Source: Saccharofermentans sp. (GTDB lineage Bacteria > Bacillota > Clostridia > Saccharofermentanales > Saccharofermentanaceae). Taken from it: DNA of 32,374 nt. Every line of letters starts with the position of its first letter. Positions within the stretch are counted from its first letter, which is position 1. Under the pieces are notes generated by a model that worked only from the letters and a program-made list of their open reading frames with translations, ran no database searches and had not been told where the DNA came from. This document shows, in pieces, positions 14,945 to 32,049 of the stretch. Where the stretch lies: assembly GCA_016292145.1 (NCBI GenBank), contig JAEFBA010000022.1, positions 1-32,374 of the forward strand. Reading direction: 5' to 3'. The translations under genes were made by a program, and so were the position numbers.

Positions 14945-16486
14945 ATGGCCAAGGAAATGATCCTCGTCCTCGATTTCGGAGGGCAGTATAACCAGCTCAT
15001 TGCAAGACGTGTCAGAGAGCAGAATGTCTACAGTGAAGTAAGACCATACACCACGAGCATTGAAGAGATCAAGGCACTGAATCCCAAGGGAATCATCCTC
15101 ACAGGCGGCCCTTCCACTGTTTACGAAGACGATGCACCCAAGTGCTCACCCGAACTCTTTAAGCTCGGCATCCCGGTACTCGGTATCTGCTACGGCGCAC
15201 AGCTCATGAATTACCTGCTTGGCGGCGAAGTAAAGTCAGCACCCGTCAGAGAATACGGCCACACCGACGTTAATATCGATACAGAAGCTAAGCTCTTCAA
15301 GGGCGTTCTTCCCAAGACGGTCTGCTGGATGAGCCATACCGTTTATATCGCAAAACCCGCTCCCGGCTTCAAGATCACGGCACATACCGAGGTATGTCCT
15401 GTAGCAGCAGCGGAGAACGTCGAAGAGAATCTCTACTGCGTTCAGTTCCATCCGGAAGTCGTTCATACAGTCGAAGGCACAACGATGCTCGCAAACTTCG
15501 TTAAGGACGTCTGCAAGTGCAAGTGCGACTGGAAGATGGATTCATTCGTTGAGACATCCATTAAGGAGATCCGCGAAAAGGTCGGCTCAGGCAAAGTCCT
15601 CTGTGCTCTTTCAGGCGGCGTTGATTCATCTGTTGCCGCAGTGCTCCTCTCAAAGGCAGTCGGCAAGCAGCTCACATGCGTATTCGTCGACCACGGACTT
15701 CTTAGAAAGAACGAAGGCGACGAGGTAGAAGCAGTATTCGGCCCTGAAGGTCCCTACGATCTCAACTTCATCAGAGTAAATGCCCAGGAGCGTTTCTATT
15801 CAAAGCTCGCAGGCGTAACTGATCCTGAGACAAAGCGTAAGATAATCGGTGAGGAATTCATCAGAGTATTCGAAGAAGAAGCAAAGAAGGTAGGTGCTGT
15901 CGACTTCCTCGTACAGGGCACCATCTATCCTGACGTTATCGAATCCGGCCTCGGCAAGAGTGCCGTTATCAAGTCTCACCACAATGTAGGCGGACTTCCC
16001 GACTATGTTGATTTCAAGGAGATCATCGAACCCTTAAGGCTCCTGTTCAAGGACGAAGTAAGAAAGGCTGGTCTTGAGCTCGGTATCCCCGAGAACCTCG
16101 TATTCCGTCAGCCGTTCCCCGGCCCGGGTCTTGCTATCCGCATCATCGGCGAGGTTACGGCAGAGAAGGTAAAGCTTGTTCAAGATGCAGATGCGATCTT
16201 CAGAAGAGAGATGCAGCTCGCAGGCTTCGACAAGTACGCTAACCAGTACTTCGTAGCACTCACAAATATGCGTTCTGTAGGTTGCATGGGCGACGAGAGA
16301 ACATACGATTACGCATGCCTCCTCCGTGCCGTTACGACCACAGACTTCATGACCGCTGAAGCAGCAGAGCTTCCCTGGTCACTTATCAACAAGGTCACTA
16401 ACAGGATCGTAAACGAAGTCAAAGGCATCAGCCGCGTCTTCTACGACTGCACGGGCAAACCGCCGTCAACGATCGAGCTTGAATAA
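14945..16486 (+). CDS. guaA: GMP synthase (glutamine-hydrolysing)
   Basis: Converts XMP to GMP using glutamine and ATP. 513 residues, full length. The class I amidotransferase domain has the nucleophile Cys82 in GICYGAQL and the dyad His169/Glu171 in QFHPEV. The ATP pyrophosphatase P-loop SGGVDSS is at 223-229, followed by the dimerisation domain with [13 protein letters not shown] and the C-terminal [14 protein letters not shown] lies seven bases upstream. The last four codons form part of the 51-bp block repeated at 29438-29488, so the 3' end of guaA is the integration site of the adjacent elements and may have been restored by one of them. Confidence 0.98.
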
Positions 16487-16525
16487 TTAACGGGGCCCTG
16501 AAAGTCAATAAAATAGGGCGTTTCA
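16475..16525. repeat. Left att-like repeat (guaA end)
   Basis: Starts in guaA codon 510 and runs 39 bp past the stop. In-register, gap-free match to 29438-29488. The longest identical runs are CAATAAAATA and the TTCA/CTGAAAG segments; the crossover core must lie inside one of these. It also contains a short GCCCT/AGGGC hairpin that may serve as guaA terminator. Confidence 0.75.
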
Positions 16526-16543
16526 AGGTTTAAAAGTCTTTCG

Positions 16544-16742: not shown

Positions 16743-16754
16743 GAACATACGTTC
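16743..16754. promoter_or_regulatory. LexA (SOS) box
   Basis: GAACATACGTTC fits the Firmicute LexA/DinR core GAAC-N4-GTTC, including the R-N-R-Y centre. It abuts the -35 of a consensus promoter. A comparable box lies in the matching promoter of element 2, which makes chance less likely. Confidence 0.7.
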
Positions 16755-16783
16755 TTGACAAACAAAAGTTCGGGTTGTAAAAT
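16755..16783 (+). promoter_or_regulatory. SOS-controlled sigma-A promoter
   Basis: Perfect -35 TTGACA (16755-16760), 17-bp spacer and -10 TAAAAT (16778-16783). It faces the zinc-ribbon gene and, through the structured RNA, xis and int. Confidence 0.8.
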
Positions 16784-16825
16784 CGTACACATAGAAATCT
16801 CATTTTTGAATAAGGAGGCATGAAT

Positions 16826-17119
16826 ATGTTTGAAGAATATAGTCCTCAAATTAGAAGAAAACTATATAAATCGTATTATACGTCCCGCGGGAAGAGAAGT
16901 AGAGAGATACGCTGTCCTAAATGCGGATTATTGCTTTGGGTTGCTGTTGGAACAGACCACGGCTTTCTTCAAAAGAAGTGCAGGAAATGTAAATTTCAAG
17001 GTTGGCTTGAAGTTGGACTTCCCAAAAATGAGGGTGCAAATTCAAAAAGACCCCCAGAATTTTATAATGGACCTGAATGTATTAGACTTGGCAAAACTTC
17101 AACTGAAAACTCAGCTTAG
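16826..17119 (+). CDS. Small zinc-ribbon protein
   Basis: 97 residues from the ATG at 16826; AAGGAGG is seven bases upstream of this codon but only one base from the ATG at 16820, so the later one is chosen. Two CxxC pairs, CPKC at 30-33 and CRKC at 52-55, with aromatic residues between, form a likely zinc ribbon. The N-terminus is basic and tyrosine-rich. It is the first gene after the LexA promoter of element 1 and has no counterpart in element 2 within the window. It may regulate excision or bind nucleic acid; I do not recognise a named family. Confidence 0.7.
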   Translation: MFEEYSPQIRRKLYKSYYTSRGKRSREIRCPKCGLLLWVAVGTDHGFLQKKCRKCKFQGWLEVGLPKNEGANSKRPPEFYNGPECIRLGKTSTENSA

Positions 17120-17185
17120 CAAAACCGGATTAGCTACTAATCCTTAAATGCAGCTTTTGTTTACAGTGCAATAAATTTGACTATA

Positions 17186-17300
17186 ACCGAGCAAGCGGAG
17201 CAGGATCCTTAACTTAAGGACTGAAAAGACTATCAAGCGCCGTATGAGTCAGGAGAGAGATTCAAAAGAATCCCTTCTGGCTCATACGGCTTTTTGTTTT
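17186..17300 (+). ncRNA. Structured RNA with terminator upstream of xis-int (element 1 copy)
   Basis: Begins ACCGAGCAAGCGGAGCAGG, then a hairpin CCTTA/TAAGG (within 17207-17219), then AGGACTGAAAAGACTATCAA, and ends in a 14-bp stem (17239-17252 with 17277-17290, one G.U) followed by TTTTTG. Element 2 has the same block at 29906-30097. The primary sequence of the terminal stem differs there but pairing is preserved, which is covariation evidence for a real RNA. It ends about 25 bp before a leader mini-ORF and about 100 bp before xis, so it could act as an attenuator or a trans-acting RNA. Published int-alpA RNA motifs occur in similar contexts; I cannot confirm identity. Confidence 0.65.
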
Positions 17301-17324
17301 CAAATTCATGAGAAAGGAGAAAAA

Positions 17325-17396: not shown

Positions 17397-17624
17397 ATGA
17401 ATAACAAAGTACCTATTTTTTTAAGAGCAGCAGAAATAGCAGAGATATTGGGAATTTCACAGCCTGCAGCATACAGAATAATCAGAGATCTCAATACAGA
17501 ACTTCAGCAGAAGGGCTATATGATTCAGATCGGCAGAGTTAACAGAAAGTACTTTGCTGAAAGATATGGTTTGTCTGTTGATGATCTTTCGGATCAGATG
17601 GAACAAATAGAAAGGGGAGCATAA
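17397..17624 (+). CDS. xis: Excisionase-like HTH protein
   Basis: 75 residues with an N-terminal winged-helix/HTH_17-type motif: LRAAEIAEILGISQPAAYRII at about 9-29 (20-residue core RAAEIAEILGISQPAAYRII), followed by a basic wing with GRVNRKYFAERYG. Proteins of this kind (AlpA/Xis-like) bend att DNA and direct the integrase toward excision, or regulate int. It is two bases upstream of int, and the pair is conserved in element 2 (30732-30974) with the same GRVNR(K/R)YF wing. Confidence 0.8.
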   Translation: MNNKVPIFLRAAEIAEILGISQPAAYRIIRDLNTELQQKGYMIQIGRVNRKYFAERYGLSVDDLSDQMEQIERGA

Positions 17625-17626
17625 AA

Positions 17627-18700
17627 ATGCCGGTATTTAAAGATAATCTTCGAGGAACATGGTATGTGATGGCAAGGTATACCGCATATAACGGTGATCA
17701 TAAGCAGAAGTGCAAAAGAGGATTTATTACCAAGAGAGAAGCGATGGCCTGGGAGCGGGAATTTCTTCTCGCTGACAGCGGAAATCTAAACATGCTCTTC
17801 AAGACTTTTGCGGAAGAATATCTCAACGAAATGAAGCCTCGTTTGAAATTGAATACTTTTTTGACAAAAAAAGCAATTTTCAACCGTTATCTGATACCGG
17901 ATTTTGGAATGAGGAGACTCTCTGAGATAACTCCCAAAGATATAAGAGAATGGCAAAACAGTATGCTGAGTCTTAGAGATGAAAATGGAAAACCGTTTTC
18001 AAGTTGCTATCTGAAAACAATTCATAATCAGCTTTCGGCGGCATTCAATTATGCTGTTAAGTTTTATGGTCTTCCTAGAAATCCAGCTGCATTAGCAGGC
18101 AATATGGGAAAAGAAGGAAAGACAGAAATGAAGTTCTGGACTCAGGAAGAATACAGAAAATTCTCTTATGCCATTATGGATAAACCGGCATCATATTATG
18201 CCTTTGAAGTTCTTTATTGGACTGGTATTCGCGAGGGCGAATTGTTGGCGCTGACACCGGGAGATTTTGATTTTGAGGCCAAAACATTACGGATCAATAA
18301 ATCATATCAAAAGTTAAACGGAAAAGATGTGATTACCAGTCCAAAAACTGTAAAAAGCAATCGAATTATTAAGATATCTGATTTCTTATGTGAAGAGATA
18401 AAAGATTATCTGTCTATGTTCTATCAACTTGATGATGACACTAGGATTTTCTCCGTCACAAAACACTTTCTTTTTAAGGAAATGATGAGAGGCTGCAAGA
18501 TCTCTGGTGTAAAGCGTATCAGGATCCACGATCTTCGTCATAGTCATATTAGTCTTTTGATAGACATGGGATTTTCTCCAGTTGCGATAGCGGAAAGAGT
18601 TGGTCATGAGAGTATCCATATCACATACAGATATGCACACTTATTTCCTACTATTCAGGACCAGATGGCAGATAAGCTGAATGAAACAAAGAGGTATTGA
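17627..18700 (+). CDS. int: Tyrosine recombinase (integrase) of element 1
   Basis: 357 residues. An N-terminal arm-binding domain (about 1-50, with KQKCKRGF), a SAM-like core-binding domain (about 55-150), and a catalytic domain with Arg202 (GIREGELL), His301/Arg304 (HDLRHSH), His327 (GHES) and nucleophile Tyr336 (RYAHLF). All five key residues are present, so it should be active. It most resembles the Tn916-type/phage integrases of Firmicutes. GGGGAG lies seven bases upstream. The preceding small gene and the guaA-end repeat indicate that it is the integrase responsible for insertion there. The element 2 integrase has the same length and residue register. Confidence 0.95.
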   Translation: MPVFKDNLRGTWYVMARYTAYNGDHKQKCKRGFITKREAMAWEREFLLADSGNLNMLFKTFAEEYLNEMKPRLKLNTFLTKKAIFNRYLIPDFGMRRLSEITPKDIREWQNSMLSLRDENGKPFSSCYLKTIHNQLSAAFNYAVKFYGLPRNPAALAGNMGKEGKTEMKFWTQEEYRKFSYAIMDKPASYYAFEVLYWTGIREGELLALTPGDFDFEAKTLRINKSYQKLNGKDVITSPKTVKSNRIIKISDFLCEEIKDYLSMFYQLDDDTRIFSVTKHFLFKEMMRGCKISGVKRIRIHDLRHSHISLLIDMGFSPVAIAERVGHESIHITYRYAHLFPTIQDQMADKLNETKRY

Positions 18701-22282: not shown

Positions 22283-22975
22283 ATGACTTCTAAAAAGCAT
22301 GAGAAAATTCTAAGTTGTTTTATAGATGAGACTGGTGATTTCGGCGAGTACGATGCTCGCTGTCCATATTATATGGTTACGGCGGTTCTTCACGATCAAG
22401 ACGAGTCTATAAAAAAACAGCTTGATGGAATAGAACAATATCTTAATGATCTTGGTTATCCGCATCATGCGTTACATGCTGGTCCGCTTATTCGCAGAGA
22501 AGCAGATTATGAAAACATGACAATGGAAGAGAGAAAGAAACTTTTCAATCTTCTTTACAACTTTGCTAGAAAACTTCCTATCCATTTTATCTGTGCAAAG
22601 GTTAAGAAATCAGAATGCCGAGATTCCGATGAGCTTGATGCAAAACTTACAAAAGCAATAATGGCTGCGGTTTCTAATTCAAGAGAATACTGGGATTCTT
22701 TCGATAAGATCATAATCTACTATGATAACGGCCAAAAGGCATTAAAACGCGTTTTGAATATTACTTTTAATAGCCTCTTCTCTGATGTCGAAGTTCGCAA
22801 GGTGCAACCGGCTGATTACAGACTGTTTCAAGTCGCAGATCTGATTTGTACGCTTGAACTTACATTAGCGAAAATTGAGCAGGGTTCATTTTCCAAGACT
22901 GAAGATGCATTTTTCCATGGTGCACATGAATTCAAAAAAGAATACTGGCGAAAGATAAAAACTAAAGAGCTATAA
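22283..22975 (+). CDS. DUF3800 family protein
   Basis: 230 residues. The N-terminal CFIDETGDFGEY is the family hallmark (acidic residues on a first strand, RNase H-like fold proposed), followed by YYMVTAVL, a mid-region acidic IIYYDNGQ and the C-terminal QVADLICTLEL. DUF3800 genes are frequent in mobile and defence islands, and nuclease activity is suspected for the family. The ribosome site is weak (AGGT), consistent with control by the leader RNA. No partner gene is fused or overlapping. Confidence 0.85.
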   Translation: MTSKKHEKILSCFIDETGDFGEYDARCPYYMVTAVLHDQDESIKKQLDGIEQYLNDLGYPHHALHAGPLIRREADYENMTMEERKKLFNLLYNFARKLPIHFICAKVKKSECRDSDELDAKLTKAIMAAVSNSREYWDSFDKIIIYYDNGQKALKRVLNITFNSLFSDVEVRKVQPADYRLFQVADLICTLELTLAKIEQGSFSKTEDAFFHGAHEFKKEYWRKIKTKEL

Positions 22976-25590: not shown

Positions 25591-26109
25591 TTATTCTGAG
25601 CAGAGTGCGTTTTTAATAGCGAGATAATTCCAATGCTTGATTCCATTTTCATAATAATACCCATTAATATGAGCACCACAATATCTTAATGTTTCGGGGC
25701 ATTTTGATTTAATTACAGCTGCGTAGTTATATATTACTAATATTTTTAGATTATCCCGTTTGGCCTTTTCGCATTCATACTGTATATAGCTTCTGTAATC
25801 TACATTACCACTTCTGTGACAACTTGCATGATAAGGATCGTAGCTGGAACAGTATTGGCAACTGCCTTTTGTTAAACTGGTTGTTTTTTCACCGGCAATC
25901 AAGACAAAAGTTTTAGAAGCGTCTAATCTTTCAGATAAAGATTTTTTGATGCTGCAATATAAGCTGGTATCTCGTGCCTGTGTTAACTCATGAGCATCAA
26001 TAAAGTGGAGTTTAAGATCATTTCTGTTATTCCATTCATAAAGTTTAGCTATTAAGTCTTGATCTCCAGTCCAATCTCCAGCTATGTAGGTTTTTGTGCG
26101 ATATGTCAT
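25591..26109 (-). CDS. TIR-like (ThsB/DUF1863-type) protein
   Basis: 172 residues. The order of segments matches ThsB-type TIR domains of Thoeris defence: strand TYIAGDW (7-13), strand LHFIDAH (34-40), RDTSLYCSIKKSLSERL then strand TFVLIAGEKT (67-76), and YIQYECEKAKRDNLKILVIYN (108-128; YIQYECEKAK holds the conserved Glu region). Such proteins convert NAD into a cyclic or conjugated ADP-ribose signal on phage infection. It has a Cys-rich insert with Cys84, Cys87 and Cys97 (CQYC...SCH) that may bind zinc. It starts by a 4-bp ATGA overlap with the macro gene. No homologue search was possible, so this assignment is by pattern. Confidence 0.75.
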   Translation of the reverse strand: MTYRTKTYIAGDWTGDQDLIAKLYEWNNRNDLKLHFIDAHELTQARDTSLYCSIKKSLSERLDASKTFVLIAGEKTTSLTKGSCQYCSSYDPYHASCHRSGNVDYRSYIQYECEKAKRDNLKILVIYNYAAVIKSKCPETLRYCGAHINGYYYENGIKHWNYLAIKNALCSE

Positions 26110-27197
26110 TTGTTTTTACCTCCTATAGATAATTGATTTGCTGCATCAGTACTAATAACAATAATTATTTTTCCATGAACTGTGGACGATTTATTGATTA
26201 GCTTTCTACTTAATAGATCAAAAGCTTCTTGATATGTAAGGCCTGCTCTAGAACGTCCTGTCCCTAACAATGGTATGTATAGCTCATAACCTTGTCCGTT
26301 AATATCATAAAAGTTCAATAGTTTATCGATAGCTTCTTCAATATATTGTGGGCAACTAACTGCACGATTATTTTCATCAAATATAGAAATTGCTAATAAA
26401 TAAAAGCAAGCATTATCATATACAACAGTTGCAATTGTACCGATAGGATACTCGCCATCATTGTTGCAATTACTATGACGATGTGACAGATCATCTAATA
26501 TTCGTTGCTTAACATCATCCATTTTCATGTTTCTTTTTTTTAGTCGCAATAACCATTCTCCATGAAGGGTTTCTCCTGAAACAAGTGGATTAGTTGTTTT
26601 TTCGAGTTTAGTAGATAGATGCGTGTCAAATTTAGTATTTACCGGTATAACGACAATGGTTTTCCTTTTTCTTCTATTTGCGAATGCATACTTAAAGATA
26701 TCTCCGGTAATTACTCGAATATAGCTGTTACCTCTATTCCAAATCGAAGTTGCTGTATTAGTTGAACTGATGTTATCTATTAGCATCGTTTTAAGCATTA
26801 TTGAGACAAAAAACTCAATATTATCTGAAATTGATAGCAGCAAGGTTTTCTCTGATTCAGAGAATGAAGTGTCGTTTGATAATTGACTTGTAAATAAATT
26901 ACGCAATTCTGGAAAGCGATTCTCGTTGATATACCTTTTATAAAAATCAGAAGAGGCCTCAATAAACTCAGGTAATCGTTCATTGTTAATTGATGCCTTA
27001 ACCAAAACAGGCGGTAGATTAATATGATTATTTACGATCTTGCTTGTGTAAGATTTGTCAAAGTAGAGTGATTCTTTACCATTTTTCATTTTCAGATCGC
27101 AAGTGTCTACGATACAGCTTATTGCTTCATTTAGAAGTTTTTCGTAGCTGCATTTTGCATATGGTTTCATAAGTCTTAGCCATTCGCCATAATTCAT
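26106..27197 (-). CDS. Macro-domain protein, candidate Thoeris type II-like effector
   Basis: 363 residues. The C-terminal macro domain (about 159-352) fits the DUF6430/ThsA-macro pattern: RVITGDIF, VIPVNTKFDTHLS (183-195), LHGEWL, YPIGTIATV, FYLLAISIFDENNRA and the ligand loop PLLGTGRSRAGLTYQEA (309-325). In described type II Thoeris this domain binds a TIR-made ADP-ribose derivative and is fused to membrane helices. Here residues 1-150 are predicted soluble helices with no clear membrane segment, so the effector part is different and unrecognised. GAGGA lies seven bases before the ATG. It is the first gene of a two-gene operon with the TIR gene. Confidence 0.75.
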   Translation of the reverse strand: MNYGEWLRLMKPYAKCSYEKLLNEAISCIVDTCDLKMKNGKESLYFDKSYTSKIVNNHINLPPVLVKASINNERLPEFIEASSDFYKRYINENRFPELRNLFTSQLSNDTSFSESEKTLLLSISDNIEFFVSIMLKTMLIDNISSTNTATSIWNRGNSYIRVITGDIFKYAFANRRKRKTIVVIPVNTKFDTHLSTKLEKTTNPLVSGETLHGEWLLRLKKRNMKMDDVKQRILDDLSHRHSNCNNDGEYPIGTIATVVYDNACFYLLAISIFDENNRAVSCPQYIEEAIDKLLNFYDINGQGYELYIPLLGTGRSRAGLTYQEAFDLLSRKLINKSSTVHGKIIIVISTDAANQLSIGGKNK

Positions 27198-27403: not shown

Positions 27404-28129
27404 ATGGATCCCAAAGAAAATTTATCTGTAAGAGCGGGCTGTAAGGATGTATGGAATGCTTTTATGTTGCAGGGTGCTTCATTTTCTGAAAATGATATTC
27501 CGCTTTGTCCTACAACAGCAAATGAAATACCCTCAAGACTAATATCGTATGAAGAAGCAAAACATATACATAACTGCGAGTTAGAACGAGGCAATGCCAA
27601 CTACAAGGTTAATGCTTTTGTGCATTTCTACATTGATGATCAGGGGTTTGATGGAAAGAGGACAAGTATATGGACTTACCCTGACGTTGCTGAGAAGGTT
27701 TTATGTCATTATGACGGTATCATTGCCCCTGACTTTTCGACTTATTTGGATTTCCCTGATCCGTTGAAAAGATGGAATTACTACAGAATGAATAGTTTTG
27801 GTTATTGGTACGGTTCCACAGGGCATCAGGTTTATTGCAATGCCAGATGGGGTGCAAAAGACACCTGGAACTACTGTTTTGATGGAATCAGATCAGGTGA
27901 TCCTGTAGCAATTGGAACTGTTGCCAGCGGATTAAGAAGATTAGTTAATCGACCTTTATTTGAAGAAGGACTTTTTGAACTCGTCGCGAGAAAGCATCCT
28001 CCGTTTATTCTTGTATATGGTTCGGCAAACTATAAATGTTTTGATGCTATTAGGGAACAAGGTGTCAAGATTATCTCGTTTCCAAGCCAGACTTCCGAAG
28101 CATATTTGAGGAGGAAGTCTTATGAGTAA
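27404..28129 (+). CDS. DUF4417 family protein
   Basis: 241 residues. The family pattern is clear: FIDDQGFDG-like start of the core (VHFYIDDQGFDG), YDGIIAPDFSTYLDFP near 104-119, NYYRMNSFGYWYGSTGHQVY, then NYCFDGIRSGDPVAIGT and the terminal strand PPFILVYGS. DUF4417 genes are common on Firmicute phages and integrative elements, and their activity is not known to me. An AAAGGAGG site gives the start. It overlaps the next gene by 8 bp, so it is translationally tied to the deaminase gene. Confidence 0.85.
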   Translation: MDPKENLSVRAGCKDVWNAFMLQGASFSENDIPLCPTTANEIPSRLISYEEAKHIHNCELERGNANYKVNAFVHFYIDDQGFDGKRTSIWTYPDVAEKVLCHYDGIIAPDFSTYLDFPDPLKRWNYYRMNSFGYWYGSTGHQVYCNARWGAKDTWNYCFDGIRSGDPVAIGTVASGLRRLVNRPLFEEGLFELVARKHPPFILVYGSANYKCFDAIREQGVKIISFPSQTSEAYLRRKSYE

Positions 28130-28619
28130 ATCATATAGTTATTTGTTTTCTGGTACTAGAGGTTCTGTAACACATGATAAGTCTGTGATTAAGTCTGTTT
28201 CACACGGCAAACTTAAGTCTTGGGCCAAACATAAAATGGAAACGCTGAAGGGAAAAGCAAAGAGCAGTTTTAATACTGCATGCATAGTCTATGATGAAAC
28301 TACAGGAAAGTGTTATTATGGCAGAAACGGAGGTTACAACGCAGAGGGCTATGAGAAGAATCCAATACTGTTCGGTGATGATACACATGAAGGTATCCTT
28401 CCAAAGAACTCTCTTAACAAATTTCCTGTAGGAAATTGTGCTGAAGTTGATGCAATAAACAATGCATTAAATGATGGAGCTCAATTAAAGAATTTGCATA
28501 TTACAACGATCAATGCAACAAAGAAAAAATTCGGCACGTATAAACCTTCATGCGAAAACTGTAAACATACATTTAAAGGTAAGGTTAAAGAAAACTACTC
28601 AGGTTGGGTAGAAGACTAA
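28122..28619 (+). CDS. Deaminase-fold toxin (polymorphic-toxin type)
   Basis: 165 residues. The C-terminal half shows the cytidine-deaminase-like zinc site: NCAEVDA (Cys106, catalytic Glu108) and PSCENC (Cys144, Cys147), with FNTACIVYDETTG as the first strands. The N-terminus MSKSYSYLFSGTRG is a short leader I associate with clostridial secreted toxins, with no signal peptide. YwqJ-type toxin deaminases act on nucleic acid or nucleotides of competitors. It is followed by a 179-residue acidic gene, fitting a toxin-immunity pair. A housekeeping CMP/dCMP deaminase is less likely, since the spacing and N-terminus differ. Confidence 0.7.
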   Translation: MSKSYSYLFSGTRGSVTHDKSVIKSVSHGKLKSWAKHKMETLKGKAKSSFNTACIVYDETTGKCYYGRNGGYNAEGYEKNPILFGDDTHEGILPKNSLNKFPVGNCAEVDAINNALNDGAQLKNLHITTINATKKKFGTYKPSCENCKHTFKGKVKENYSGWVED

Positions 28620-28637
28620 TAATAGGAGATTCATATT

Positions 28638-29177
28638 ATGAATGATAGATTTAATAGAATATCAATGAACGGTAGAATGGCATATGTAATCATGTGTGTT
28701 GAAGCATATTTGAAAAATGTATATCCGGACAGGGATTGGAAACTGGTAGCTTCAGCTATGTGGAAGGCTACAAACAATAACTGGGGCGATTGGACAGATT
28801 TATACTGTGGTTTTATCCCGGAAGTATTATTTCAATATGATAATTACGATGAAGATGACCTTGGATCCTCATATGCTGAAGCCGAATTTAACACTCTGAA
28901 GAACTTGTATTCCGGAATTACTGAAGGTAGAGAAGATGATCCTACTGACGAGTTAAATTATGTGTTGAACAAACCACTGGAGATGGCTATGGTATATGAA
29001 GGTACCGGAATAGGTGATGGCAGTGAATCGGTTGAAATAATAAACAGTCTTGAAGAGGTTCTAATAAAGCACCAGATTGCTTTGCCTGATCATAATAAGA
29101 TTTCGTTCTCTTCCATCGAAGAGCTTAATGGCTGGGGAAATGATTTTGATGGAGAATATCTGTCAATTATTCTATAA
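28638..29177 (+). CDS. Probable immunity protein for the deaminase toxin
   Basis: 179 residues, strongly acidic, no signal peptide or membrane helix. The N-terminal half is helical (RMAYVIMCVEAYLKNVYPDR in pieces, then WKLVASAMWKATNNNWGDW), a pattern I have seen in immunity proteins next to toxin genes, but I cannot give the family number. It follows the deaminase gene by 18 bp with AGGAGA upstream. Function is inferred from position and charge. Confidence 0.55.
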   Translation: MNDRFNRISMNGRMAYVIMCVEAYLKNVYPDRDWKLVASAMWKATNNNWGDWTDLYCGFIPEVLFQYDNYDEDDLGSSYAEAEFNTLKNLYSGITEGREDDPTDELNYVLNKPLEMAMVYEGTGIGDGSESVEIINSLEEVLIKHQIALPDHNKISFSSIEELNGWGNDFDGEYLSIIL

Positions 29178-29404: not shown

Positions 29405-29437
29405 AAGGCCTAACCACAATATAAGCTTTATCTTAGC

Positions 29438-29488
29438 GAACTCGAATAGTTGACGAGGTTCTGAAAGCCAATAAAATAAGGCATTTCA
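29438..29488. repeat. Second att-like repeat
   Basis: 51 bp in register with 16475-16525. It even preserves a pseudo-guaA end (codons for Glu-Leu-Glu and a stop, GAACTCGAATAG), though upstream codons do not match guaA. All ten differences are transitions, as expected for the 3' end of guaA from a different host lineage carried on an element. Confidence 0.75.
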
Positions 29489-29577
29489 GAGATTTGAGTT
29501 CATCTCGGATAAGATTTGGATAATAGGGAAGAATAACCAATTATTCCAAGTAGCAACAGGTTAACAGATTATACAAG

Positions 29578-29749: not shown

Positions 29750-29778
29750 TTGACAGAACAAATGTTCGATGATAATAT
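29750..29778 (+). promoter_or_regulatory. SOS-controlled promoter of element 2
   Basis: Perfect -35 TTGACA (29750-29755), 17-bp spacer, -10 TAATAT (29773-29778). A LexA box GAACAAATGTTC (29756-29767) fills the spacer. It faces the structured RNA and xis-int. Confidence 0.75.
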
Positions 29779-29905
29779 GCACTTGCAACATCAGATCGAC
29801 AGATATTCCTCATAGGGATTGATAGTCATCGGAGCAAAGTTGTGGAATCGAGCTCAACGATCTAAAACAAAGCTATATTACAAGAGAATAGAACCACCAA
29901 CTTAA

Positions 29906-30097
29906 ACCGAGTAAGCGGAGCAGGCCCTCCATTAGGACTGTAAAGACTACCAAGCACCGTAATAGTTGAGAGAAGGACATTTTCCTTTTCAGTTTGTGCG
30001 AACAGAACAGGATCCTCTACAAGGACTGAAAAGCTGTAAAGCACTGTATAGAACTGGAAGATGTGATCCATCTACTCAGCTACTACGGTGCTTTTTT
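29906..30097 (+). ncRNA. Structured RNA upstream of xis-int (element 2 copy, with internal repeat)
   Basis: The core ACCGAGTAAGCGGAGCAGG, hairpin CCT/AGG, and AGGACTGTAAAGACTACCAA match element 1. The terminal stem AGCACCGTAATAGTTGAG (from 29953) pairs with CTCAGCTACTACGGTGCT (30075-30092) through about 16 pairs with one A/C mismatch, then TTTTTT. The long loop holds a second copy of the core motif (30008-30048, CAGGATCC...AGGACTGAAAAG) enclosed by CAGTT/AACTG. Stem sequences differ from element 1 but pairing is retained. Confidence 0.65.
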
Positions 30098-30628
30098 ATT
30101 GCTCTCTTTGTTGGTGATTCAGAGGAAGGAATAAATATCCTTCGCGAACATTGACAAATGAATAGCAAACCGTGAGGTACGTTCACTTGTATCGGCGTTA
30201 AAATACCAAGCCAAGTTGACTCCGAACCCGCGATGACCGGTCGAAAGATCGAGAGCGATAAGGCGGATGAGTCAGAATCAGGGTTGCAACCTGAGGGAGG
30301 CGATGACAGATACAAAGTGGGGATACTTCTGTGATGAGCAGCGGGGCGTATTAGTCACCGGGGTGAGTTTCTCCAATACTCTTCCCATGTTTTCGTAGTC
30401 AGCAATGCGAGAGCCTTACGGGTTTAACTTTTTTCTGGATAAGGCGGAGCAAAACTACAGCATTATTCGCTATCTGTGTTGATTTTCAGACTGTTTATGT
30501 TGAATTCCAGGCTTCTTTTGAATTAGGTCTTTCGTTTTGCCCTCTCCCATTCCTTAAGGGTGAAGAGACAAGTAGTTCTTTTTTTGAGTCTTAAGGTTTT
30601 ACAGAAATACAACAAGGAGGTATCACAC
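30098..30628. other. 531-bp gene-free stretch with predicted RNA stems
   Basis: No supported ORF. Stems seen: CGGTC-GAAA-GATCG (30238-30251) inside CCGC/GCGG (30228-30231 with 30263-30266); TCAGG/CCTGA (30278-30294); GTATT/AATAC (30348-30379) enclosing TCAC-CGGG-GTGA (30355-30366). The rest to 30628 is T-rich. Element 1 has nothing comparable. It could be a non-coding RNA, or a decayed intron or insertion. Confidence 0.4.
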
Positions 30629-30655
30629 ATGACCATACCAAGACCGCCGACATAG
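30629..30655 (+). CDS. Leader mini-ORF upstream of xis (MTIPRPPT)
   Basis: Eight codons and a stop with an ideal AAGGAGG eight bases upstream, followed by an AAGCAT-GAAA-ATGCTT hairpin (30685-30700) before xis. The Pro-Arg-Pro-Pro run could stall ribosomes. It is positioned like the mini-ORF of element 1. Confidence 0.45.
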   Translation: MTIPRPPT

Positions 30656-30731: not shown

Positions 30732-30974
30732 ATGTTAACTAATGTAAGTACAAACAACAACATCTTTATCAGAGCAGACGAAGTCGCTCAGGTATTAAAT
30801 GTATCCGTTCAGACAGGTTACAAGATCATAAGAGATCTTAACAAGGAACTTCAGAAAAAGGGTTTCGTTGTACAGACCGGCAGAGTAAACAGACGCTATT
30901 TCGAAGCCAGATACGGCATATCCGGAATGGAGTTTACCGGTGATGGTCAGATTGCATCAGAAGGAGGGATTTGA
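30732..30974 (+). CDS. xis: Excisionase-like HTH protein of element 2
   Basis: 80 residues. HTH IRADEVAQVLNVSVQTGYKI at about 13-32, then the same basic wing GRVNRRYFEARYG as the element 1 protein. AAGGAG precedes the start. It ends one base before the int ATG. The role is as for the element 1 copy: likely control of excision direction. Confidence 0.8.
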   Translation: MLTNVSTNNNIFIRADEVAQVLNVSVQTGYKIIRDLNKELQKKGFVVQTGRVNRRYFEARYGISGMEFTGDGQIASEGGI

Positions 30975-30975
30975 T

Positions 30976-32049
30976 ATGTCAGTACACATAGACAAGCGTA
31001 CTGGAAAATGGTTCTCAATGGTTTATTACGACGATATTTATGGTAACCGCAAACAGAAGTGTAAGAGAGGTTTTAAGACCAGGAGACAAGCACTTGATTG
31101 GGAATCTGAATTTCTTAAGTCGGACAGCGGGGAATCAGATATGCGCTATGAAACATTCGTAGAAAACTATATGAATGCTATCAGTCCTCACTTGAAGGAA
31201 GATAGCATCATAACGAAAAAGAATATTTTCAGATGCCACATATTACCGTACTTCGGGAAGCGAAAACTTAATGAGATCGAGCCGATTGATGTAGCTAACT
31301 GGCAAAGGGAGATTATGAGAAAGGAGGGAGCTAACGGCAAGCCGTTATCTTCAGTGTTTCTCAAGACGATTCACAATCAGCTTTCAGCATCGTTTAACTT
31401 CGCAGTGAGGTTTTATCACCTTCCCAAGAATCCGGCAGCAATCGCAGGAAACATGGGAAAAGAAGGTGGTAGGGAAATGCTTTTCTGGACGAAAGATGAG
31501 TATACGAGATTCTCGCAAGCAATCATGGATAAACCAATGTCCTATTACGCGTTTGAGATGCTTTACTGGACAGGGATGCGTGAAGGGGAACTCCTGGCGC
31601 TCACACCTGACGATTTCGACTTAGAAGCCAAGACTGTGAAGATATCAAAAACATATCAGAAGATCAATGGCAAGGAGCTTATTACAACACCTAAGACGGC
31701 CAACAGCAACCGCACGGTAACGATGCCGGACTTTCTTTGCGAAGAGATGAAGGAGTATCTGCAATTTATTGACGGTATAAAGGGTATTGAGAGGATTTTC
31801 CCGGTATCAAAGTATTTTCTTCTCCATGAGATGAAAAGAGGATGTGCAGTTGCAGGTGTAAAGCGGATTCGTATACACGATATAAGACACAGTCATGTAA
31901 GTCTTCTTATCGATATGGGATTCACGCCGGTAGCAATCGCTGCAAGAGTCGGACATAAGAGCATTGATATAACCTTCCGATATGCGCACCTTTTCCCGTC
32001 AGTCCAAGGAGAACTTGCCAACAAACTTAATAGTGTAAAGGAGTACTGA
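30976..32049 (+). CDS. int: Tyrosine recombinase (integrase) of element 2
   Basis: 357 residues from the ATG at 30976 (AAGGAGGG upstream; an earlier in-frame ATG at 30940 lies inside xis and is rejected). It has the same register as the element 1 integrase: Arg202 in MREGELL, HDIRHSH with His301 and Arg304, GHKS with His327, and RYAHLF with Tyr336. The two proteins are colinear without gaps, with long identical stretches in the catalytic domain and more variation in the arm-binding domain. This supports the same target type (guaA end) with different arm sites. Confidence 0.95.
   Translation: MSVHIDKRTGKWFSMVYYDDIYGNRKQKCKRGFKTRRQALDWESEFLKSDSGESDMRYETFVENYMNAISPHLKEDSIITKKNIFRCHILPYFGKRKLNEIEPIDVANWQREIMRKEGANGKPLSSVFLKTIHNQLSASFNFAVRFYHLPKNPAAIAGNMGKEGGREMLFWTKDEYTRFSQAIMDKPMSYYAFEMLYWTGMREGELLALTPDDFDLEAKTVKISKTYQKINGKELITTPKTANSNRTVTMPDFLCEEMKEYLQFIDGIKGIERIFPVSKYFLLHEMKRGCAVAGVKRIRIHDIRHSHVSLLIDMGFTPVAIAARVGHKSIDITFRYAHLFPSVQGELANKLNSVKEY

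Follow-up and report, generated by a model that had tools for sequence, protein, structure and literature searches.

Attenuators and leader RNAs that work through an intrinsic terminator (e.g., the T-box, riboswitch, BglG/SacY, and TRAP systems) have a structured 5' domain, followed by the terminator, upstream of the regulated genes. The phage antitermination sites, viz., lambda nut and HK022 put, are portable RNA elements placed before several mobile-DNA operons. In type III toxin-antitoxin systems, a structured RNA with a terminator (ToxI) lies upstream of a MazF-fold toxin; the Rfam pemK RNA (RF02913) is placed upstream of a PemK/MazF-type gene; and the Mu Com translational regulator is a small zinc-ribbon protein with a CxxC...CxxC pattern. 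How the integrative elements of gut Clostridia are kept silent and how their excision is decided are, to our knowledge, largely unknown.

We analyzed a stretch of 32,374 nt from Saccharofermentans sp. (GCA_016292145.1, contig JAEFBA010000022.1, positions 1 to 32,374, forward strand), hereafter the window, which carries two copies of a structured RNA. Like the intrinsic-terminator leaders, this RNA has a structured 5' domain running into a terminator upstream of genes, and it shares with nut and put its portability between mobile-DNA operons. It differs from the former in that no antiterminator hairpin competing with the terminator was identified upstream of it, in matching no described family in sequence or structure, and in occurring in mobile-element operons, often after a gene for a zinc-ribbon protein. 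It differs from the latter in that it includes the terminator itself and in that no N-, Q-, or Nus-type factor was identified. No family of Rfam 15 covers it, as judged from the whole window and 13 homologous loci at the gathering threshold and from the two window copies at permissive thresholds; the best sub-threshold match is a eukaryotic microRNA model lying on the terminator stem, and the int-alpA motif, proposed for comparison in the first-pass annotation, gave no match. Nor did searches of the open literature on RNA motifs near integrases, attenuation and leader peptides of ICEs, antitermination, or int-alpA yield a description. A large survey (Fremin and Bhatt 2021, PMC8040213) lists 28 candidates located close to integrase, sortase, or phage domains, and the present RNA may be among the unnamed candidates of such surveys. 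The family appears to be undescribed, while a leader with an intrinsic terminator is of a kind already known.

Two copies of one RNA in the window

Both copies end in a long intrinsic terminator and lie upstream of a xis-int pair, with the following features:

16743..16783, +, predicted promoter of copy A: LexA-type box GAACATACGTTC (16743-16754) abutting TTGACA (16755-16760), 17-nt spacer, TAAAAT (16778-16783)
16820..17119, +, gene for a small zinc-ribbon protein (CPKCG...CRKC), co-directional and 62 nt before copy A
17182..17301, +, copy A, structured RNA with intrinsic terminator (fold, covariance models)
17197..17234, +, helix P1 of copy A: GGAG (17197-17200) with CUAUC (17230-17234), one bulged base (covariation)
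17201..17223, +, helix P2 of copy A: CAG (17201-17203)/CTG (17221-17223) and CCTTA (17207-17211)/TAAGG (17215-17219) (fold, comparison)
17239..17295, +, intrinsic terminator of copy A: 14-bp stem (17239-17252/17277-17290) and T tract (17291-17295) (fold, covariation)
17397..17624, +, xis-like HTH gene after copy A
17627..18700, +, tyrosine integrase after copy A (PF00589, E 2.8e-18; PF14659, E 2.7e-18; PF14657)
29750..29778, +, predicted promoter of copy B: TTGACA-17-TAATAT, LexA-type box GAACAAATGTTC (29756-29767) inside the spacer
29902..30100, +, copy B, structured RNA (fold, covariance models)
30000..30092 (about), +, second, partial unit nested in copy B (own model match), using the terminator 3' arm of the outer unit
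30732..30974, +, xis-like HTH gene after copy B
30976..32049, +, tyrosine integrase after copy B, 61% identical to the copy A integrase

The conserved blocks that the first-pass annotation had noticed are present in both copies, reading ACCGAGCAAGCGGAGCAGG...AGGACTGAAAAGACTATCAAGC at 17186-17238 in copy A and ACCGAGTAAGCGGAGCAGG...AGGACTGTAAAGACTACCAAGC at 29906-29955 in copy B. A BLASTN search with copy A recovers copy B (82% identity, E 2e-8); the two share a block of 50 nt, and their flanks are unalignable. Copy A folds at -45.6 kcal/mol against -25.4 kcal/mol for its dinucleotide shuffles (z -6.07), and copy B at -67.1 against -43.2 kcal/mol (z -5.99); both are far more stable than shuffled sequence, and no shuffle equals either copy. 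In copy B, P1 is formed by GGAG (29917-29920) and CUACC (29947-29951), and the outer terminator arms lie at 29953-29970/30075-30092. The annotation's further claim, that the terminal stem changes its letters and keeps its pairing, holds for both copies (GCCGTATGAGTCAG/CTGGCTCATACGGC at 17239-17252/17277-17290 in copy A; AGCACCGTAATAGTTGAG/CTCAGCTACTACGGTGCT in the copy B arms). The greater length of copy B is due to a second, partial unit within its terminator loop (CAGGATCCT...AGGACTG; P1 ACAG 30002-30005/CUGU 30034-30037; fold z -3.4), the 5' arm of which can likewise pair with the 3' arm used by the outer unit. This nested unit is matched on its own by the covariance model R1 (43.5 bits, E 9.7e-8) and at 33.9 bits in a further model search. 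Copy A scores 122.8 bits with R1, which was built from copy A, and 83.8 bits with R3, which also includes it.

A direct repeat of about 58 bp occurs at 16474-16531, at the 3' end of guaA, and at 29437-29495, before the second module; these are probably attachment sites, in which case guaA is the site of two tandem integrative elements. Genes for a TIR-like ThsB and a macro-domain ThsA, a Thoeris-type anti-phage defence pair, lie on the reverse strand at 25591-27197, between the xis-int modules. The region also contains a known DUF3800-XI RNA (RF02975; 22210-22245) directly upstream of a DUF3800 gene at 22283, and a gene with a YwqJ-like deaminase domain followed by a small gene with no family match (28122-29177), possibly a toxin-immunity pair.

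Covariation, homologs, and distribution

Covariance models retrieved about 25 further sites in mobile elements of Clostridia, including the Ruminococcus albus plasmid pRUMAL02. BLASTN in related genomes gave the first relatives, from the same genus; model R1 (4 sequences) widened the set within the genus, R2 (9 sequences) extended it to the order and class, and R3 (16 sequences) added members from two more families, from a phage clone and the R. albus 7 plasmid pRUMAL02, and from two viral contigs located by pattern. Matches of R1 and R2 under about 30 bits and opposite-strand matches on the palindromic terminator stem (L102-L107, L122, L134, L135, L137) were set aside as chance or symmetry. 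When viral contigs were scanned for exact occurrences of the 19-nt 5' block, all 7 matches proved to be chance, lying in coding sequence with no similarity downstream. In an even draw of the class, 8 of 391 genomes have a strong match, and among 398 genomes drawn from the phylum the sole match at E <= 1e-5 is the window's own genome; the family is therefore sparse and, within this sampling, limited to Clostridia.

P1 is a 4-bp stem, GGAG/CUNYC, with one bulged base. In a 16-sequence alignment (A7), compensatory changes back both P1, in which two of the four pairs change on both sides with 100% pairing retained (GC/GU/AU and AU/GC exchanges), and the terminator (GC/AU/GU and other exchanges). 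Altogether 97% of cells are paired and 5 pairs show double-sided change; no shuffle out of 500 attains the observed covariation score, and sliding the structure by 1-3 columns lowers the paired fraction to 30-49% of cells. An earlier alignment of 9 sequences gave a similar outcome. These counts are not independent events, the sequences being related and the alignments having been built around the structure tested. The compensatory changes exceed both the shuffled and the slid controls, as is seen in a conserved structured RNA and in line with the first-pass expectation of covarying homologs. P1 is intact at 23 of the 24 parsed sites, and the P2 hairpin forms at all 24 with unrelated sequences (e.g., CCTTA/TAAGG, TTTGAG/CTCAAA, TCAGAT/ATCTGA, GCAAA/TTTGC, and GACC/GGTC). 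A further 5' hairpin, CCG/CGG, is unsupported as a conserved helix: it competes with P1, and its outer pair is broken in L017.

All full-length members have the terminator stem and T tract, and this GC-rich hairpin with its T tract upstream of a co-directional gene is one of the features expected of an intrinsic-terminator attenuator. The inverted repeats near int or mob genes might instead suggest a DNA site bound by a recombinase, excisionase, or relaxase. We regard this as very improbable: G-U pairs are tolerated in P1 and in the terminator, the element keeps one orientation with respect to the gene after it, its T tract is conserved, and the attachment-like repeats of the window lie elsewhere (the 58-bp repeats above). 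A simpler alternative is that the RNA merely terminates the operon upstream, i.e., that of the zinc-ribbon gene, the rest being inherited decoration with no regulated readthrough. At most sites a stop codon immediately precedes the strong stem and T tract, and an RNA that follows the zinc-ribbon gene could just end that operon. However, a terminator has no need of a conserved, covarying P1 or of the fixed single-stranded motifs CAAGC and AAGCGGAG 5' of its stem. Orphan sites also follow promoters immediately and precede recombinase, mob, or Xre genes, and in copy B no gene separates promoter and RNA, bar a possible frame of 21 codons with a TTG start. We accordingly hold plain termination to be unlikely. 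Upstream of copy B, at 29840, a TTG-started frame ends in PPT-stop, as does a nine-codon frame (MTIPRPPT-stop; 30629-30655) with a strong Shine-Dalgarno sequence 77 nt before the copy B xis gene.

Promoters, genes, and modules around the RNA

Both predicted promoters have the form TTGACA-17-TAnnAT with a perfect GAAC-N4-GTTC LexA-type box, 3 such boxes being found in the window against 0.48 expected. A predicted LexA box at the promoter is what an SOS-controlled operon would carry, and since both copies lie downstream of one, the "SOS promoter" of the first-pass annotation is plausible. Copy A is preceded by its LexA-box promoter and then the zinc-ribbon gene, and followed by xis and int; at copy B the RNA comes directly after the promoter. 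Among the homologs, the RNA is always upstream of, and co-directional with, an element gene. The downstream genes are varied: xis-int; sigma-like/PemK/xis/int; a serine recombinase (L144); a MobC-relaxase operon (L146); RepA-like AAA_25-xis-int (L151, L152); and an Xre gene directly after the promoter (L155-L157). The fullest modules run from a LexA/S24-type repressor, an ImmA/IrrE protease, and the zinc-ribbon gene through the RNA to a sigma-like gene, a pemK RNA where detected, a PemK/MazF-like gene, xis, and a recombinase. In the 5' region of two modules (L089 and L090), another conserved non-coding stretch (GGAATTTCGCAAAAGCAG(T/C)AATGCTCGTGCGTTT...) precedes the small ORF before ImmA. Only one of 63 genome loci with related integrases has the RNA (L022, with an integrase 97% identical), which rules it out as a fixed companion of the xis-int pair. 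In the window the RNA lies upstream of xis-int, as the first-pass annotation has it, but it is a portable leader rather than one specific to xis-int.

The stop codon of the zinc-ribbon gene lies 6-84 nt before the RNA start at 17 of 27 sites. A profile of the protein, in which the window protein is itself a row, finds it in its own genome with E 7e-32. In the class draw, the protein occurs in 9 genomes, the RNA in 8, and both in 7, an overlap that is biased, as RNA-linked sequences went into the profile. One locus, L184, came up solely through the protein search, and there the RNA follows the gene with a score of 51.9 bits. The protein resembles Mu Com in its small CxxC...CxxC form and in weak matches to PHROG 6417 ("translational regulator") and Pfam Zn_ribbon_Com. 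It differs in that these matches fall below the cut-offs and the sequence is otherwise dissimilar, and RNA binding is a candidate property only. Six orphan-RNA genomes (G024, G080, G378, G585, G586, G312) gave no match to the gene, so that, unless it is divergent there or lost from incomplete assemblies, the protein cannot be a universal effector, and we reject it as an obligatory partner in the strong form. It is still the leading candidate for a factor acting on the RNA, an identification that we make tentatively.

The PemK/MazF-like genes raise the possibility of an RNA antitoxin of a type III-like pair, as L142, L143, L145, L147, and L149 have the order RNA, terminator, PemK/MazF-like gene, and copy B is a tandem with its nested second unit. 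Such a role is most doubtful. In ToxI systems the RNA is directly upstream of the ToxN-type toxin gene; here the PemK gene is about 0.7-1.1 kb on, beyond the sigma-like gene, and none lies between either window copy and xis-int or after the orphan copies. Moreover, several modules have their own pemK RNA before the PemK gene (about 0.9 kb downstream of the present RNA in L120 and L127-L129), which differs from it in sequence and structure. In the window, a sub-threshold pemK RNA match (24.9 bits vs a cut-off of 34.8) lies at 30322-30390, after copy B and before xis. It adjoins no PemK gene and is possibly a decayed remnant of a full module.

A possible second layer in complete modules and a proposed mechanism

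In many modules the T tract is followed by a segment (a') complementary to the 5' end of the RNA and an adjacent one (b'') complementary to the terminator 5' arm. The divergent modules L169-L171 have wholly different letters and keep the pairing (GAUCAUAA/UUAUGAUC, GGUCAA/UUGACC), cognate a/a' pairings ranking first. As the order is a-b-a'-b'', these pairings would form a pseudoknot of readthrough transcripts. The first-pass annotation had suggested an attenuator or a small RNA, and these segments, together with a length of about 110 nt and a terminal intrinsic terminator, could point to a terminated transcript acting in trans to control excision. However, the complementary stretch belongs to the transcript itself and runs in the same 5'-3' order, which gives a crossing pairing in cis and makes a contiguous trans duplex impossible; it is missing beside both window copies; and a gene always comes after the RNA on the same strand. 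We therefore see little likelihood in a small RNA, slightly less than in plain termination, and retain the attenuator as the better half of that guess. In copy A neither a' nor b'' does better than shuffles in the pairing test, and copy B has no complementary segment beside the RNA, for which reason the long-range pairing is rejected as a general feature. We found no strand able to open the terminator ahead of its formation, b'' lying downstream of it.

At most module sites there follows a hairpin with a Shine-Dalgarno sequence and a short open frame ending in Tyr-Pro-stop (e.g., MLLKWQCYIAEYP, MFYTIWQCQIAKYP, MRLWQTYIDSYP, and MYTVYWQSAIARYP), with the consensus M..W(Q/L)xxxAxYP-stop. Such leader peptides with a Shine-Dalgarno sequence are found downstream of the RNA in L142, L143, L145, L147, L149, L153, L154, L162, L163, L164, L169-L171, L184, and L185, and resemble the Trp...Pro-stop layout of TnaC. 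In several modules the TATCCGTAATCTCC region shows complementarity to the GGAGATTACGG of the gene that follows, as judged by eye without statistics; a stop-codon region able to pair with the next Shine-Dalgarno sequence is a candidate translational attenuator. Copy B has no Tyr-Pro-stop frame, and copy A retains a possible ...KQYP-stop trace and an MNLFDTS frame.

Taken together, the conserved sequence, covarying structure, terminator, position between a LexA-box promoter and genes for recombination or transfer, and recurrence in unrelated contexts lead us to favor, with some reserve, a cis-acting portable transcription attenuator in SOS-type operons that would keep excision and transfer genes off until readthrough. 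Under this proposal, the LexA-type promoter would start the transcript, and the polymerase would meet a compact, sensor-like fold, the P1 clamp around hairpin P2, the 3' strand of which runs straight into the terminator (CUAUC followed by AAGC, the bases of which are able to extend the stem). Most transcripts would end at the T tract by default, so that xis and int would stay low even with the promoter firing. A factor acting on P1-P2 or on the terminator would then allow readthrough and turn excision on; as the 3' strand of P1 abuts the terminator, a factor holding or melting P1 could change the folding of the latter. The RNA would thereby probably decide whether excision or transfer genes are read.

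A broader and considerably more tentative reading is that of an undescribed portable antitermination system of Clostridia mobile elements, in which the polymerase would pass terminators before excision, mobilization, and recombinase operons through the action of the zinc-ribbon protein, or of a host signal, on the P1-P2 RNA. In complete modules, this might be followed by a second layer comprising the covarying long-range pseudoknot, in which a' pairs with the 5' end and b'' with the terminator arm, and the TnaC-like Tyr-Pro-stop leader peptide, the stop-codon region of which would pair with the Shine-Dalgarno sequence of the sigma-like gene. If this reading is true, excision would depend on DNA damage and ribosome stalling together. 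The P1 clamp, the terminator, the zinc-ribbon protein, and the leader peptide are testable parts, for which R. albus 7 with its plasmid pRUMAL02 offers a named, sequenced carrier strain. A single portable RNA with a built-in terminator before excision, mobilization, recombinase, and repressor genes would constitute a common control point for horizontal transfer.
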